Shown here piece by piece: positions 25,217 through 34,760 of a stretch of DNA of 64,000 nt. Origin of the DNA: Jiangella alba (GTDB lineage: Bacteria; Actinomycetota; Actinomycetes; Jiangellales; Jiangellaceae). The notes under the pieces are model-generated. The model worked only from the letters and a program-made list of their open reading frames with translations. It was not told where the DNA came from and did no database searches. The position numbers were made by a program, and so were the translations under genes. The first letter of the stretch is position 1; the number at the start of each line of letters is the position of its first letter. Location: contig NZ_FNUC01000003.1 in assembly GCF_900106035.1 (NCBI RefSeq), positions 682,001 through 746,000 of the forward strand. Direction: 5' to 3'.

Positions 25217-25282
25217 GGGGACGGCTGGGGCGGACGGCGCGGGCCGGTGGCGTGCGGCAGGTGCGCGGCGTGCTGTGCGCGG

Positions 25283-25343
25283 TGGTAGGTCGACCCCTCC
25301 CGGCCCGGGTGGGGCCCACCCTACGGGCGGGCACCGACAACGT
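25283..25343 (+). repeat. 61-bp direct repeat, copy 2
   Basis: Bases 25291-25343 are identical to 16026-16078. This copy sits in the only sizeable gap (190 bp) of the transporter/ADP-ribosylglycohydrolase array, between family members 1 and 2. Confidence 0.85.
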
Positions 25344-25406
25344 TCGACGCGCGCGGAACTCGCCGGCGCGCGCCGGTGGGTGCGGTGCGCGGTGGGAGGA
25401 CGGCTC

Positions 25407-26456
25407 GTGACGGAACGGCAGGAACGCAGGGCCGGGGCGCTGCTCGGGCTCGCCATCGGCGACGCCGCGGGGTGGCCGTCGGTGCGGCACCGGGCGGTGC
25501 TGCTGCCGCCGTGGACCCGGCGGTTGCACCGCGAGCTCGACGCGTTCGCGGAGACACAGCAGGTGACGACGCTGCCGGTGCCGTTCGCGCTGAACCAGCC
25601 GACGGCGCCGCTGCGGCTGGGCCCGTCCGACGACGCGGAGTGGGTGGCGTGGACGCTGACCCGCCTCGGCACGACGACCGGCCCGCTGACCCGCGCCGAC
25701 GTTCACGCGTACTGGCGGACGGCGGTGACGGAGGGGACGCTGCCGCGCGGCCGGATCAGCGTCGCGACCGCGGCCGACGCACTGCGGCGGGATGTCGACC
25801 CGCCGGTGACGGGGCACGACAACCCACACCACTTCGACGACGCCGGGGCGGTGCGGGCGGTCGCGGCCGGGTTGGTGGCCGCCGGACCCGCGGAGGCGGC
25901 GACCCTCGCCGGGTGGGACGCCGAGGTGACGAACTCCGGCGACGGCGTGGCCGCGGCACGGGCGGTCGCCGCGACGATCGCGCGGCTGGTCCGCGGCGAA
26001 CCGCTGGCCACCGCCTGGGCGGCGGCAGCGGAACACCTGACGCAGGACACCCTCCTGACCGACAACCTGGCCCGAGCGGTGACGAGCACAGCCGACGCCA
26101 CCAGCGCGGCCGACGCCGTCCCGCTGCTGGACGAGCCGGCCGGTCACGTCTACAGCTACGGCGTCGCCGCGGCGCAGACGCTGCCGGTCGCCGTCGCGCT
26201 GGCGCTGGCCGCCGAGCGCGGCGGGGAACCACCCATCGCCGCGATCACCGCCGCCGCCTGCCTGCCCGCGACCGCCGACAGCGCACCCGCGCTGACCGGA
26301 GCGCTCACCGGTGCGGCCCGCGGCCTGAGCGCGCTACCCACCACGTGGGCCGAGCGGTGCCGGCGACTCGCCGGTTGCTGCGCGGCCGATCTGGCCGGAC
26401 TCGACCTGGTCGAGCTGGCAGGTTCCATCGAGGAGAGGACGACTCGTGACCACTGA
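25407..26456 (+). CDS. ADP-ribosylglycohydrolase-family protein 2 (degenerate metal site)
   Basis: A 349-residue member of the same fold (GALLGLAIGDAAGWP at the N-terminus) starting at a GTG after GGGAGGA. The first metal motif reads PSDDAEW (S74-D75-D76-A77), losing the Thr on either side. The second, normally G-x-D-x-D-S/T, is PATADSAPAL, so one of the two Asp ligands is replaced by Thr and only D291 remains. It may be a non-catalytic partner or bind metal differently. Its last 11 bases overlap the next gene. Its C-terminus is Cys-containing (LAGCCAADL). Confidence 0.85.
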   Translation: MTERQERRAGALLGLAIGDAAGWPSVRHRAVLLPPWTRRLHRELDAFAETQQVTTLPVPFALNQPTAPLRLGPSDDAEWVAWTLTRLGTTTGPLTRADVHAYWRTAVTEGTLPRGRISVATAADALRRDVDPPVTGHDNPHHFDDAGAVRAVAAGLVAAGPAEAATLAGWDAEVTNSGDGVAAARAVAATIARLVRGEPLATAWAAAAEHLTQDTLLTDNLARAVTSTADATSAADAVPLLDEPAGHVYSYGVAAAQTLPVAVALALAAERGGEPPIAAITAAACLPATADSAPALTGALTGAARGLSALPTTWAERCRRLAGCCAADLAGLDLVELAGSIEERTTRDH

Positions 26457-27591
26457 CGCACTCATCGACACCGCGGTCGGATGCATGACGGGAGCCGCCG
26501 TCGGCGACGCGCTCGGTGGTGCGACGGAGGGGTGGTCGCCGCAGCAGATCCGGGACCGGTGGGGCGGCTGGGTCGAGGGCATCGTGCCGCCGTACTACGA
26601 GGACTGGCGCACCGCGCGGCCCATCGCGCCGTACCACAAGGGCGACGGCCACGTCACCGACGACACCCTCATGACGCACCTGGTGGTCGACGTGTACGAG
26701 CAGGCCGGGGCGCACCTGACGGCGTACGACGTGGCCGAGCGGCTGGTGCCGCTGATGATCGGCCGCAAGGTCTGGATCCCCGAGCTGGAGGCCGAGGCGC
26801 TGCCGCTGCAGCGGGTCTTCCTGGCGGAGAAGTTCATGGCGCTGCGGCTGCACTGGGGGCACGCCGACCCGCGTGAGGCCGGCGTCGGCAACGCGGTGAA
26901 CTGCGGCGCGGCCATGTACATCGCGCCGGTCGGCATCGTCAACGCCGCCGACCCGGACGCCGCCTACGCCGAGGCCATCGACGTCGCCGGTGCGCACCAG
27001 TCGTCCTACGGGCGCGAGGCGGCCGGCGTCATGGCGGCCTGCGTGGCCGCGGCCGCGGCGCCCGGCGCGACGATCGATGACGTGCTGTCGGCGGCGGTCC
27101 GGCTGGCGAAGGACGGGACGAGGGCCGGCATCGAGGCGGTGCTGGAGACGGCGGCGTCGATCGGGCACTGGACCGAGGCGGTCGAGTCGGGCAAGCTGCG
27201 TGCCGCCGTCGCCCCCTACGACACCGTCGGCGACGACTACCGCAACCAGGGCCTCGGCGCGCGCCGCCCGAGCCGCGTGCACACCATCGAGGAGCTGCCG
27301 GTCGCGCTGGGCCTGCTCGCCATCGCCGGGGGCGACTGGCGCGACGCCGTCATCGGCGGCGTCAACTACGGCCGCGACTCCGACTCGATCGCGTCGATGG
27401 CCGGGGCCGTCGCCGGAGCGCTGGGCGGCCGCGCCGCGGTGCCGGCCGACCTGGTGACGACGGTCGCGGCGGCCAGCAGGGTCGACCTCGTCGGGCCGGG
27501 GGAGCGGCTGGCCGCGGTGACGGCGCGGGTACGGGCGGCCGACGCGGCCCGGCGGGTGGCCGTCGACGCCGCGTTCGGCGGGCTGGCCTGA
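26446..27591 (+). CDS. ADP-ribosylglycohydrolase-family protein 3
   Basis: A 381-residue protein with an intact two-metal site: VTDDTLM (T71-D72-D73-T74) and NYGRDSDSIASMAGAVAGAL near the C-terminus, plus GCMTGAAVGDALGGA at the start. It is longer than classical DraG-type enzymes because of a central insertion (YEQAGAHLTAYDVAERLVPL through IPELEAEALPLQRVF). The GTG start lies within the 3' end of gene 2 and follows GAGGAGAGG. Most likely it is a true glycohydrolase of the pathway. Confidence 0.9.
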   Translation: MTTDALIDTAVGCMTGAAVGDALGGATEGWSPQQIRDRWGGWVEGIVPPYYEDWRTARPIAPYHKGDGHVTDDTLMTHLVVDVYEQAGAHLTAYDVAERLVPLMIGRKVWIPELEAEALPLQRVFLAEKFMALRLHWGHADPREAGVGNAVNCGAAMYIAPVGIVNAADPDAAYAEAIDVAGAHQSSYGREAAGVMAACVAAAAAPGATIDDVLSAAVRLAKDGTRAGIEAVLETAASIGHWTEAVESGKLRAAVAPYDTVGDDYRNQGLGARRPSRVHTIEELPVALGLLAIAGGDWRDAVIGGVNYGRDSDSIASMAGAVAGALGGRAAVPADLVTTVAAASRVDLVGPGERLAAVTARVRAADAARRVAVDAAFGGLA

Positions 27592-28928
27592 TGCGGCTCA
27601 CCTGGATCCAGCCGGAGGACCTGGTCGGGCACGCGTTCGCCCAGGCCGGCGAGGACGGCGTCGACGTCGCGGACCTGCGGGCCCGGTGGACGGTGGCCGG
27701 CGGCGACGACGCGCCGGTGCGGTCGGGCGCCTCCGAGACCCCCGCGCCACCGGAGCTGCGGGCGCTGGCCGCGCAGCTGCTGGACGAGCTGGACCGGCGG
27801 CCGTCGCCGTACGACGAGGCCGAGCCGACGGCGCTGGACGAGCTGCGGGCGGGCTGGCCGGCGGGTGCGCGACGGGAGGCCGCCGACGCCGGCCGCGTCC
27901 ACGGCGCCTGGCTCGGCCGCGCCGCCGGCTGCCTGCTCGGCAAGCCGGTCGAGAAGATCTCGCGGGCCGGGATCCGGGAGATCCTCGAGGCGACCGGCCG
28001 CTGGCCGCTGACCGGCTGGTTCACCGCGGTCGGCCTGCCCGGCGACGTCGCCGCCCGCCATCCGTGGAACCGCCGCAGCGCGACGACCAGCCTGGCCGAG
28101 AACATCGACGGCATGCCCGAGGACGACGATCTCAACTTCCCGATGCTCAACCTCGCCCTGCTGGAGGACCGCGGCGCCGGGCTCACGACGGAGGACGTCG
28201 CGCAGCGGTGGCTGGCCGAGCTGCCGGCCGGGCGGGTGTTCACCGCCGAGCGGGTCGCCTACCGCAACCTGCTGCTCGGCCACCTGCCACCGGCCACCGC
28301 GACGGTGCGCAACCCGTTCCGCGACTGGATCGGCGCGCAGATCCGCGGCGACGTGTTCGGCTGGGCCCGGCCCGGCGACCCCGCCGGCGCCGCGGCGCTG
28401 GCCTGGCGCGACGCCGTCCTCAGCCACACCCGCAACGGCGTGTACGGCGAGCTGTTCGCGGCCGCGGCGTGCTCGGCCTCGCTGGTCGCGGCGACGGTGG
28501 ACGAAGTGCTGGACGCCGGGCTGTCGGTGGTCCCGGCGGCGTCGCGCTACGCCAAGGCGGTCCGCTTCGCCCGCGAGACCGCCGCGAAGGAACCGGACTG
28601 GGAGGCCGTCGTCGACGCGATCGAGGCGCGCTACGGGCACCTGCACTGGGTGCACGTCCTGAACAACGCCGCGCTGGTGGTGGCCGCGCTGGTGCACGGC
28701 GGCGGCGACTACGAGCGGTCCATCACGGCCGTCGTCAGCGGCGGCTGGGACACCGACTCCAACGGCGCCACCGTCGGCTCGATCGTCGGCGGGCTGACCG
28801 GCGCCGCCGCGCTGCCGCAGCGGTGGACCGCGCCGCTGCGCAACCGCGTCGGCACGACGCTGGCCGGGTTCGACGGCATCGGCTTCGACGCGCTCGCGGC
28901 CCGGACGGTGGCGGTGAGTGCGCCGTGA
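27591..28928 (+). CDS. ADP-ribosylglycohydrolase-family protein 4 (divergent, N-terminally extended)
   Basis: A 445-residue member with an extra N-terminal domain of about 100 residues before the core. The usual VGDALG motif is [12 protein letters not shown], the first metal motif is the acidic variant PEDDDLNF (177-181), and the second is [14 protein letters not shown]. These variants define a recognisable separate subfamily that keeps enough Asp residues to bind metal. Its ATG shares one base with the preceding stop (TGATG), and its own stop overlaps the ribokinase GTG (GTGA), showing tight coupling. Confidence 0.87.
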
Positions 28929-31716: not shown

Positions 31717-32903
31717 CCGCCGGGCCGCTGGCCGGGCTGCGGGTCGTCGACGCCGCGACGCTGTTCGCCGGGCCGATCGCGGCGATGCACCTGGGCGACA
31801 TGGGCGCCGACGTCGTCAAGGTCGAGCACCCGCGCCGCCCGGACCCGTCCCGCGGGCACGGGCCGGCGAAGGACGGCCAGAACCTGTGGTGGAAGACGCT
31901 CGGCCGGAACAAGCAGACGATGACGCTGGACCTGTCGCACGAGCGCGGCCAGGAGGTGTTCCGGCGGCTGGCCCGTGAGTCGGACGTCGTCATCGAGAAC
32001 TTCCGGCCCGACACGCTGGAGCGGTGGAACCTCGGCTACGACGCGCTGGCGGCGGACAATCCGGGGCTGATCCTGGCGCGGGTGACCGGGTTCGGGCAGG
32101 TCGGCCCGTACCGGCGGCGGCCCGGCTTCGGCACGCTGGCCGAGGCGATGAGCGGGTTCGCCGCGATGACCGGCGAGCCGGACGGCCCGCCGACGCTGCC
32201 GCCGTTCGGGCTGGCCGACGGCATCACGGCGCTGGCGACGGCGTTCGCGGTGACGTCCGCGCTGCACGCCCGGGCCGCGACCGGACGCGGGCAGGTCGTC
32301 GACCTCGCGATCGTCGAGCCGATGCTGTCCGTGCTCGGGCCGCAGCTCACCCGGTGGGACCAGCTCGGGACGGTGCAGCCGCGCACCGGCAACCGGTCGG
32401 CGAACAACGCGCCGCGCAACACGTACCAGTGCGCCGACGGTCGCTGGGTCGCGGTGTCGACCAGCTCGCAGAGCATCGCCGAGCGGGTCATGCGGCTGGT
32501 CGGCCGGCCCGACGTCGTCGACGAGCCGTGGTTCGCGACCGGCGCCGGCCGGGCCGCGCACGTCGAGGAGCTGGACGCCGCGGTCGGCGCCTGGGTGTCG
32601 TCGCGGACACGGGACGAGGTCGTCGCCGAGTTCGAGCGGGCCGAGGCCGCCGTCGCGCCGGTCTACGACGCGTCGGACATCGTCGCCGACCCGCAGCTGG
32701 ACGCGCTGGGGACGGTGCTGCGGCTGCCCGACGACGACCTCGGCGAGGTCGCGATGCAGAACGTGCTGTTCCGGCTCTCCGAGACGCCCGGGACGGTGCG
32801 GTGGACCGGGCGGGCGCACGGCGCCGACACCGTGGCCGTGCTGGGGTCGCTCGGGTACAGCCCGGACGAGATCGCCTCGCTGCGGACCGAGGGCGTCGTA
32901 TGA
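31713..32903 (+). CDS. family III CoA-transferase (CaiB/BaiF)
   Basis: A 396-residue CoA-transferase that moves CoA between organic acids through an Asp-bound anhydride. Signatures are [31 protein letters not shown], the [13 protein letters not shown] strand and the catalytic Asp D169 in [13 protein letters not shown]. Its GTG overlaps the preceding stop (GTGA) and its stop overlaps the CitE-like start (ATGA). The pair CoA-transferase plus CitE-like lyase suggests that a dicarboxylic or hydroxy acid is activated and then cleaved. Confidence 0.92.
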
Positions 32904-33742
32904 ACCTGACCCTGCTCTACGTGCCCGCCGACCGGCCCGACCGCGCGGCGAAGGCGCTCGCGTCGGCGGCCCACGTGGTGATCCTCGACCTGGAGGACGC
33001 GGTGGCGCCGTCGGCGAAGGCGGCCGCCCGGGCGTCGGCCGCGGCGCTGCTGGCGGACGCCGGGCCGGGCCGGGCCGTGCAGGTGCGCGTCAACGCGCCC
33101 TCGACGCCGTGGGGCGGCGACGACCTCGCCATGGTCGCCGGGCTGCCGTCGTTCGTGGGGGTGCGGGTGCCGAAGGTGTCCTCGCCGGCGGACGTCGCGG
33201 CGGTGCGGTCGGCGGTGCGGTCGGCGGCGGGGGAGCGGCCGGTGCACGTGCTGCTGGAGACGGCGGCCGGTGTCGAGGCGGCGTACGCCGTCGCGTCGGC
33301 GCCGGGCGTGGCGTCGATCGGGCTGGGCGAGGCCGACCTCGCCTCCGACCTGGGCGTGTCCGGCCCGGACGGGCTGGCGTGGTGCCGGCAGCGGCTGGTG
33401 GTCGCGGCGCGGGCGGCCGGGCTGCCGCCGCCGGCGATGGCCGTCTGGACCGACCTGCGCGACGACGACGGGCTGGCCGCGTCGTGCCGGGCGGGGCGCG
33501 CGCTCGGCTTCGTCGGGCGGTCCGCGATCCACCCCCGGCAGCTGCCCGTCATCGAGGCCGCCTTCCGCCCGTCGCCGGACGAGGTCGCCCGCGCGGCCGA
33601 GGTGGTCGCCGCGGTCGAGGCCGCGGCGGCCTCCGGCTCCGGCGTCGCCGTCCTCCCCGGCGGCCGCTTCGTCGACGTCGCCATGGTCGAGCAGGCCCGC
33701 CGGGTGCTCGCGCTCGCCGGCGACGTTGTCGGACCCCGCTGA
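32900..33742 (+). CDS. CitE-like HpcH/HpaI-family aldolase/lyase
   Basis: A 280-residue TIM-barrel protein of the citrate-lyase beta-subunit-like family, which cleaves or forms C-C bonds in malyl- or citramalyl-CoA-type esters. Seen are LYVPADRPDRAAKA (CoA/substrate Arg), VVILDLEDAVAP, the metal Glu in LLETAAGVEAAY, GEADLASDLGV with the second acidic ligand, and GFVGRSAIHPRQ. It overlaps the CoA-transferase stop, implying consecutive steps. It is the last intact gene of the array. Confidence 0.9.
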   Translation: MNLTLLYVPADRPDRAAKALASAAHVVILDLEDAVAPSAKAAARASAAALLADAGPGRAVQVRVNAPSTPWGGDDLAMVAGLPSFVGVRVPKVSSPADVAAVRSAVRSAAGERPVHVLLETAAGVEAAYAVASAPGVASIGLGEADLASDLGVSGPDGLAWCRQRLVVAARAAGLPPPAMAVWTDLRDDDGLAASCRAGRALGFVGRSAIHPRQLPVIEAAFRPSPDEVARAAEVVAAVEAAAASGSGVAVLPGGRFVDVAMVEQARRVLALAGDVVGPR

Positions 33743-33755
33743 CAGACCTGGCTCC

Positions 33756-33995
33756 ATGGGGATCCGGGTTCAGCACGGCGACCTGCTCGCCGCGCAGTTC
33801 AAGGCGGCGCACCCGGACATGTTCGCGGCCTACGCAGCGGCGGCGCGGGCGGGCGAGCTGCGGCTGCGGTCGATCGCCGTTCCGCCGCTGGGGTGTGGGC
33901 TCGGCGGCCTCGACTGGGCCGACGTCGAGCCGATGGTCAGGCGCGGGCTCGGCGCGCTGCCGGGCGTCGAGGTCCTCCTGTACCCGCCCGTCTAG
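33756..33995 (+). pseudogene. shrunken DarG-type macrodomain relic
   Basis: Seventy-nine codons with the hallmarks of the DarG DNA-ADP-ribosyl glycohydrolase macrodomain: an initial beta strand and GDLL, AAQFKAAHPDMFAAYAAAAR, then RSIAVPPLGCGLGGLDWADV and a final VEVLLYPP. A complete domain has about 150 residues. Here about 20 residues with the N-V-N-x-x-x-x-M-G-x-G ribose loop are missing after GDLL. A second block of about 40 residues is missing after the GEL in AARAGELRLRS. Both losses keep the frame. It cannot form the usual active site. No DarT toxin is adjacent. It starts 13 bases after the CitE-like gene. Confidence 0.7.
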
Positions 33996-33998
33996 GGT
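33993..33998 (+). promoter_or_regulatory. -10 element of a probably leaderless prmC-like transcript
   Basis: TAGGGT ends six bases before the GTG at 34005 and overlaps the TAG stop of the macrodomain relic. No ribosome site is present before the GTG, in keeping with leaderless translation. Confidence 0.4.
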
Positions 33999-34004
33999 GG
34001 CCGT

Positions 34005-34760
34005 GTGCTGGATGAGGGGGTCGTGGCCCGGCTGCGGGCCGCGGGGTGTGTGTTCGCGGAGGACGAGGCGCGGCTGATCGCCGAGACCGCGCGCACCCCG
34101 GCCGAGGCCGAGGCGATGATCGCCCGGCGGGTCGCGGGCGAGCCGCTCGAGCATGTGCTGGGCTGGGCCGCGTTCGCTGGGCTGCGCGTCGCCGTCGGGC
34201 CGGGGGTGTTCGTGCCGCGGCACCGCAGCGAGCTGCTGGTCGGCCTCGCGCGGGAGCGGGTGCGGCCGGGTGCGGTGGTGGTCGACCTCGGGTGCGGGAC
34301 GGGGGCGCTGGGGCTGGCCGTGGTGCACGGCATCGACGGCGTCGAGCTGCACGCGGCCGACGTCGACCCCGACGCGGTCGCGTACGCCCGCCGCAACGTC
34401 GAACCGGCCGGCCACGTCCACCAGGGCGACCTCTACGACGCCCTGCCGCAGGTGCTGCGGGGGCGGGTCGACGTGCTGCTGGCGAGCCCGCCGTACGTGC
34501 CGACGGCGGCCATCGCGCTGATGCCGCCCGAGGCCCGCGACCACGAGCCGCGCACCGCCCTCGACGGCGGCGGCGACGGGCTCGACCTCGTCCGCCGCAT
34601 CGCCGCCGGGGCGCCGGACTGGCTGCGCGCCGGCACCGGCGTCCTGCTGATCGAGCTGAGCACCGGCCAGGCCGCGGCGGCCGCCGGCGCGGTGAGCGAC
34701 GCGGGCCTGACGTCCGCACAGCACCACGACGACGAGGCGGCCGTCGTCACCGGGACGTGA
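34005..34760 (+). CDS. PrmC/HemK-like N5-glutamine methyltransferase homologue
   Basis: A 251-residue class I SAM methyltransferase: VVVDLGCGTGALGLAVV is the SAM loop, preceded by the PrmC-type region VAGEPLEHVLGWAAFAGLRVAVGPGVFVPRHRSE... of the PrmC_rel group. The catalytic N-P-P-Y of true release-factor methyltransferases is S-P-P-Y here (LLASPPYVP), so the substrate may not be a release-factor glutamine. The protein is shorter than PrmC and lacks part of the N-terminal helical domain. It ends at a terminator shared with the M14 peptidase. Confidence 0.83.
   Translation: MLDEGVVARLRAAGCVFAEDEARLIAETARTPAEAEAMIARRVAGEPLEHVLGWAAFAGLRVAVGPGVFVPRHRSELLVGLARERVRPGAVVVDLGCGTGALGLAVVHGIDGVELHAADVDPDAVAYARRNVEPAGHVHQGDLYDALPQVLRGRVDVLLASPPYVPTAAIALMPPEARDHEPRTALDGGGDGLDLVRRIAAGAPDWLRAGTGVLLIELSTGQAAAAAGAVSDAGLTSAQHHDDEAAVVTGT

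Follow-up and report, generated by a model that had tools for sequence, protein, structure and literature searches.

A broken DarG-type macrodomain gene between CitE-like and PrmC-like genes of Jiangella alba, very probably a decaying pseudogene

A short open reading frame that keeps the hallmarks of an antitoxin while lacking large parts of the corresponding domain raises the question of whether it is a gene in decay or a minimised protein that the cell still uses. Such a frame, of 79 codons plus a stop, lies on the forward strand at positions 33756-33995 of the window, meaning here the whole stretch of 64,000 nucleotides of Jiangella alba DNA that was analysed. It is present as a single copy in the genome, starts 13 bases past the stop codon (33742) of the preceding gene, and contains both of the DarG hallmark stretches from which the original prediction started. 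Homology to DarG-type macrodomains is far above chance. The NCBIfam profile antitoxin_DarG (NF048014), which describes the DNA ADP-ribosyl glycohydrolase antitoxin, matches the frame in two stretches (69.3 bits, E 3.3e-19), and the macrodomains of Thermus and Mycobacterium DarG, whose structures are solved (PDB 5M31/5M3E for Thermus and 5M3I for Mycobacterium tuberculosis), match it with E of about 5e-16. The Pfam Macro profile (PF01661) also scores above its gathering cut-off (25.8 bits vs 22), the match being confined to profile positions 80-117. Since the 69.3 bits obtained with NF048014 fall well short of the curated cut-off of 250 for full-length members, the frame is, as judged from its sequence, a homologous fragment of the DarG family and not a functional member.

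Three pieces of the macrodomain are retained, all on the forward strand. The N-terminal piece, MGIRVQHGDLLA (33756-33791), corresponds to the first strand of the macro fold and could be followed codon by codon against a copy found in a congener, designated G007. The middle piece, AQFKAAHPDMFAAYAAAARAGELRL (33792-33866), aligns with relatives and with G007, and the C-terminal piece, RSIAVPPLGCGLGGLDWADVEPMVRRGLGALPGVEVLLYPPV (33867-33992), was recognised through homology to the solved DarG macrodomains and alignment with relatives, 25 of which were aligned with the remnant as a whole. These pieces, which include the AVPPLGCGxGGLxW motif and the AxQFK helix, are alike in the remnant and in DarG, the differences residing in what is missing between them. 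Intact relatives have about 149-151 residues when counted from the start as far as the YPP end. At the first junction (33786-33794, +) about 21 residues have been lost, or 63 bp when measured directly against G007, among them those of strand 2 and of the loop that binds ribose. At the second junction (33855-33872, +), the distance in intact relatives (L082, L083 and L085) corresponds to a loss of about 51 residues. Two strands and a long helix went with them, as did the NFPTKxHW motif, so that three of the six beta strands and one helix are missing from the remnant. The absence of the ribose-binding loop had been correctly read from the sequence beforehand; the second block, put at 40 residues, had been underestimated. 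The C-terminal, DarT-inhibiting domain of DarG is absent as well, the frame stopping where the macrodomain ends.

In Thermus DarG, ADP-ribose is contacted by N8, L9, T20, N22, V31, Q34, T79, G117, G119, N120 and G121, the K80A mutant is inactive, and the N22A, K29E and G119E mutants are strongly impaired (PMC5179494). According to the alignment, the remnant has no equivalents of T20, N22, K29, V31, T79 and the catalytic K80. The ribose-binding NTVN...VMGKG loop, to which T20, N22 and K29 belong, is deleted in the window and persists in a modified form, DAVNIRGVMGEG, in G007, while the catalytic lysine, located in NFPTKxHW, falls inside the deleted 51-residue block. The remnant is not predicted to adopt the macro fold: its AlphaFold2 model, with a pTM of 0.43, contains three helices but lacks strands altogether, vs a pTM of 0.89 and six strands for an intact relative. 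It would thus be expected to have neither catalytic nor ADP-ribose-binding function.

Both internal deletions are in frame, as originally noted, with the 79-codon frame staying open across the junctions, an outcome that would arise by chance in about 1 of 9 cases. For the first deletion a cause can be proposed, because the block that the window lacks is still present in G007, with a 6-bp GGCCGC direct repeat at either edge, the two lying exactly 63 bp apart; replication slippage or recombination between them probably gave rise to the form found in the window. In the surrounding 24-kb stretch, a repeat of at least 6 bp at this spacing is expected by chance at only 0.7% of positions. The junction of the second deletion (GAGCTGCGGCTGCGG) also looks repetitive, and its undeleted form is absent from the sequences compared.

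The site itself was compared across 12 genomes of the genus, including that of the window (G000). On its left is a gene for an HpcH/HpaI aldolase, CitE-like (32900-33742, +; Pfam PF03328, E 3e-34), and on its right one for a PrmC-related N5-glutamine methyltransferase (34005-34760, +; TIGR03704, 341 bits vs a cut-off of 249). Both genes are present and adjoin each other in all 12 genomes. In ten of them the spacer, of 15 to 150 bp, holds no macrodomain. In G007, a second macrodomain copy occupies the identical site between the same two genes and is broken in the opposite way, with the N-terminal half and the ribose loop kept and the C-terminal half lost. What comes after this N-terminal half in G007 belongs to a dispersed repeat of about 200 bp. 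The G007 genome contains many further copies of it, either partial or near-full, and the better of these show 78-86% identity. The window and G007 hold complementary remnants, and relatives thus show at this locus either an independent disruption (G007) or an empty site (10 genomes), which is the pattern looked for in a pseudogene. No intact copy was seen at the locus in the 12 genomes, so that the ancestral form has to be inferred; a full-length copy in relatives was one of two outcomes that the original prediction had named as speaking against it. A different macrodomain protein, of full length, is encoded by every congener at some other place in the genome.

The two copies are most simply explained by descent from one gene at this site, since the two species resemble each other at the end of the CitE-like gene and at the beginning of the macrodomain, and the 35 codons that they have in common show 84% nucleotide identity, a value like that of the two flanking genes (85-86%). 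In a tree built from four genes of the operon, the window falls into one group with G009, G010 and G004, none of which has the macrodomain gene, and G007 lies outside, branching deeper; the window's closest relatives are G009 and G010. With this topology, one ancestral gene followed by several losses would be the simplest history. The patchy presence, with G004, G009 and G010 devoid of the gene in spite of being nearer to the window than G007, could instead be taken to mean that already broken pieces entered the site separately in the window lineage and in G007. This is highly unlikely, given that the two copies have the same context at their start and have diverged as much as the genes around them.

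The other explanation to be weighed is that the cell still produces a minimised peptide derived from the macrodomain, perhaps by co-translation with the CitE-like gene that ends 13 bases before it, and retains it for a task other than catalysis, for example partner binding. The open frame, the two in-frame deletions, a GC content at third codon positions (GC3) of still 95% and a pN/pS below 1 in the part common to both copies speak for it and, together with the lack of an intact copy at the locus, count against a pseudogene. The open frame is nevertheless weak evidence of function, because about half of all 80-codon windows lack stops anyway (47-57% across the whole window, in any frame). This serves as a warning that, in DNA so rich in GC, an open frame tells little about function. 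Concerning selection, the pN/pS, whose calculation had been proposed as a check, is 0.29 with a 95% range of 0.09-0.72 over only 35 codons and is similar to that of neighbouring genes; it would fit a recent loss and would also fit some constraint, separating neither. Moreover, most of the divergence between the window and G007 probably predates the deletions, in which case the ratio would cover mostly the time before the short form existed. No clear ribosome-binding site precedes the remnant, and its ATG corresponds to a CTG at the same position in G007, meaning that the start codon is not common to both copies.

The distribution of the short form points in the same direction. A contiguous match was found in no other of the 393 genomes of the class searched, and in a scan of 84,980 species genomes the matches listed comprised only full-length relatives or split matches. 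The idea that the short form is a normal separate family, the second contrary outcome foreseen, was accordingly rejected. Nothing useful on DarG genes that are orphaned or broken in this group came out of a literature search. Given that the ribose loop has gone together with the catalytic lysine and half of the core strands, and that the prediction shows no macro fold, the proposal of a macrodomain maintained for binding is not supported, and a peptide retained for some other non-catalytic purpose is very improbable; that the 79 residues are still translated and have gained such a role in this one species is scarcely credible. A decaying pseudogene of a DarG-type macrodomain is very probably the correct reading. 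It is favoured because the open frame says little, the short form is unique, the predicted fold is poor and the start codon is not shared, and the decay that had been suggested from the outset is borne out by the independent break in G007, the ten empty sites and the repeat signature at the first deletion. The complementary breaks in two congeners are the useful part of this case, pointing to decay over miniaturisation. What is seen appears to be a gene decaying in the ordinary way, not a miniature protein of a new kind, with accessory genes for ADP-ribose removal coming and going at a fixed site.

In the pseudogene model, the ancestor common to the window and G007 would have had a DarG-type macrodomain gene flanked by the CitE-like and PrmC-like ones. 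This gene would have been about 150 codons long, unless it encoded a longer DarG, and its product, going by its family, would have removed ADP-ribose from DNA. In the window lineage two internal deletions, the first probably by slippage between short direct repeats, would have cost the gene its catalytic core as well as the ribose loop; in G007 the dispersed repeat would have come to stand in place of the second half of the macrodomain; and in G004, G009 and G010 the gene would have been lost. The 79 codons that remain in the window would stay open owing to the very GC-rich DNA and a fairly recent loss.

Whether this ancestor belonged to a toxin-antitoxin system is a separate matter. A fuller history, compatible with the pseudogene, would have a complete DarT-DarG pair residing here, with DarT being lost first and the released antitoxin decaying afterwards. 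The retained pieces are indeed much closer to the DarG macrodomain than to the stand-alone actinobacterial macrodomain of the SCO6735 type (61.9 vs 25.2 bits), which belongs to the same ALC1-like macrodomain class (PDB 5E3B; PMC9411070), and an intact DarT-DarG pair, matched by both the Pfam DarT and Macro profiles, exists in another genus of the same family (G017, locus L002). The macrodomain of that pair is of the same type as the remnant, but it forms part of an intact two-gene system at another place, whereas the window holds broken pieces of one gene. DarT itself (PF14487) gave no match in the window genome or in the 11 congeners, in agreement with its reported absence and excluding a copy hidden elsewhere in the window genome, and no DarT remnant lies between the CitE-like gene and the macrodomain in either the window species or G007, both copies having an equally short gap to CitE. 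The remnant in the window, furthermore, stops where the macrodomain does, nothing of the C-terminal domain of DarG following it, and a lone DarG-like macrodomain is known elsewhere (L076, an open frame of 170 residues). A former pair is thus tentatively plausible, at somewhat less than an even chance. Because neither the site nor the genus shows any trace of DarT, the sequences compared are equally compatible with an ancestral macrodomain gene that stood alone. Of the proposal that a toxin-antitoxin system has decayed here, the decay of a macrodomain stands and the toxin-antitoxin half is left without a trace of its toxin.

The genes upstream had been considered striking company, the remnant being placed 13 bases after a set of ADP-ribosylglycohydrolase genes. 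The 13-base gap is real; the gene that it separates from the remnant is, however, the CitE-like one. The upstream operon is headed by three consecutive genes of the ADP-ribosylglycohydrolase family (25275-28928, +; Pfam PF03747), followed by those for a PfkB-type kinase, an FGE-sulfatase-domain protein, a family III CoA-transferase and the HpcH/HpaI aldolase. The neighbourhood carries no functional meaning, because the glycohydrolase genes occur in all 12 genomes, with or without the remnant and mostly without it, and end 4.8 kb upstream of it; a link between the two was rejected, and the proximity is incidental. The three genes and the PfkB kinase gene behind them, conserved in all 12 genomes, more likely form a metabolic operon than a protein-modification system.

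Repeats are a feature of the spacer elsewhere in the genus. A 70-bp dispersed palindrome (TTGATCTTGGAGT, about 44 bp, ACTCCAAGATCAA) fills the CitE-PrmC spacer in six of the ten empty sites (G009, G002, G011, G001, G006 and G003). Copies with exact arms number 38-72 in five congeners and 1-11 in five, with none in the window genome or in G010, an uneven spread that looks like that of a small mobile or REP-like element. The repeat of about 200 bp in G007 (contig C10, 30033-30238; L115), which occupies the place of the C-terminal half, has CCTTGGCAAGG/CCTTGCCAAGG arms and recurs at about ten other places of that genome in partial or near-full form; when the G007 copy was used as query, positions 1663-1758 of the window gave a weak match (72%) to this CCTTGGCAAGG repeat. 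Finally, comparison of the spacers revealed a TAGGGT-like box just ahead of the GTG start of the PrmC-like gene in most congeners. In the window it lies at 33993-33998 (+), with the TAG stop codon of the remnant inside it, and it resembles the -10 element expected for a leaderless transcript.
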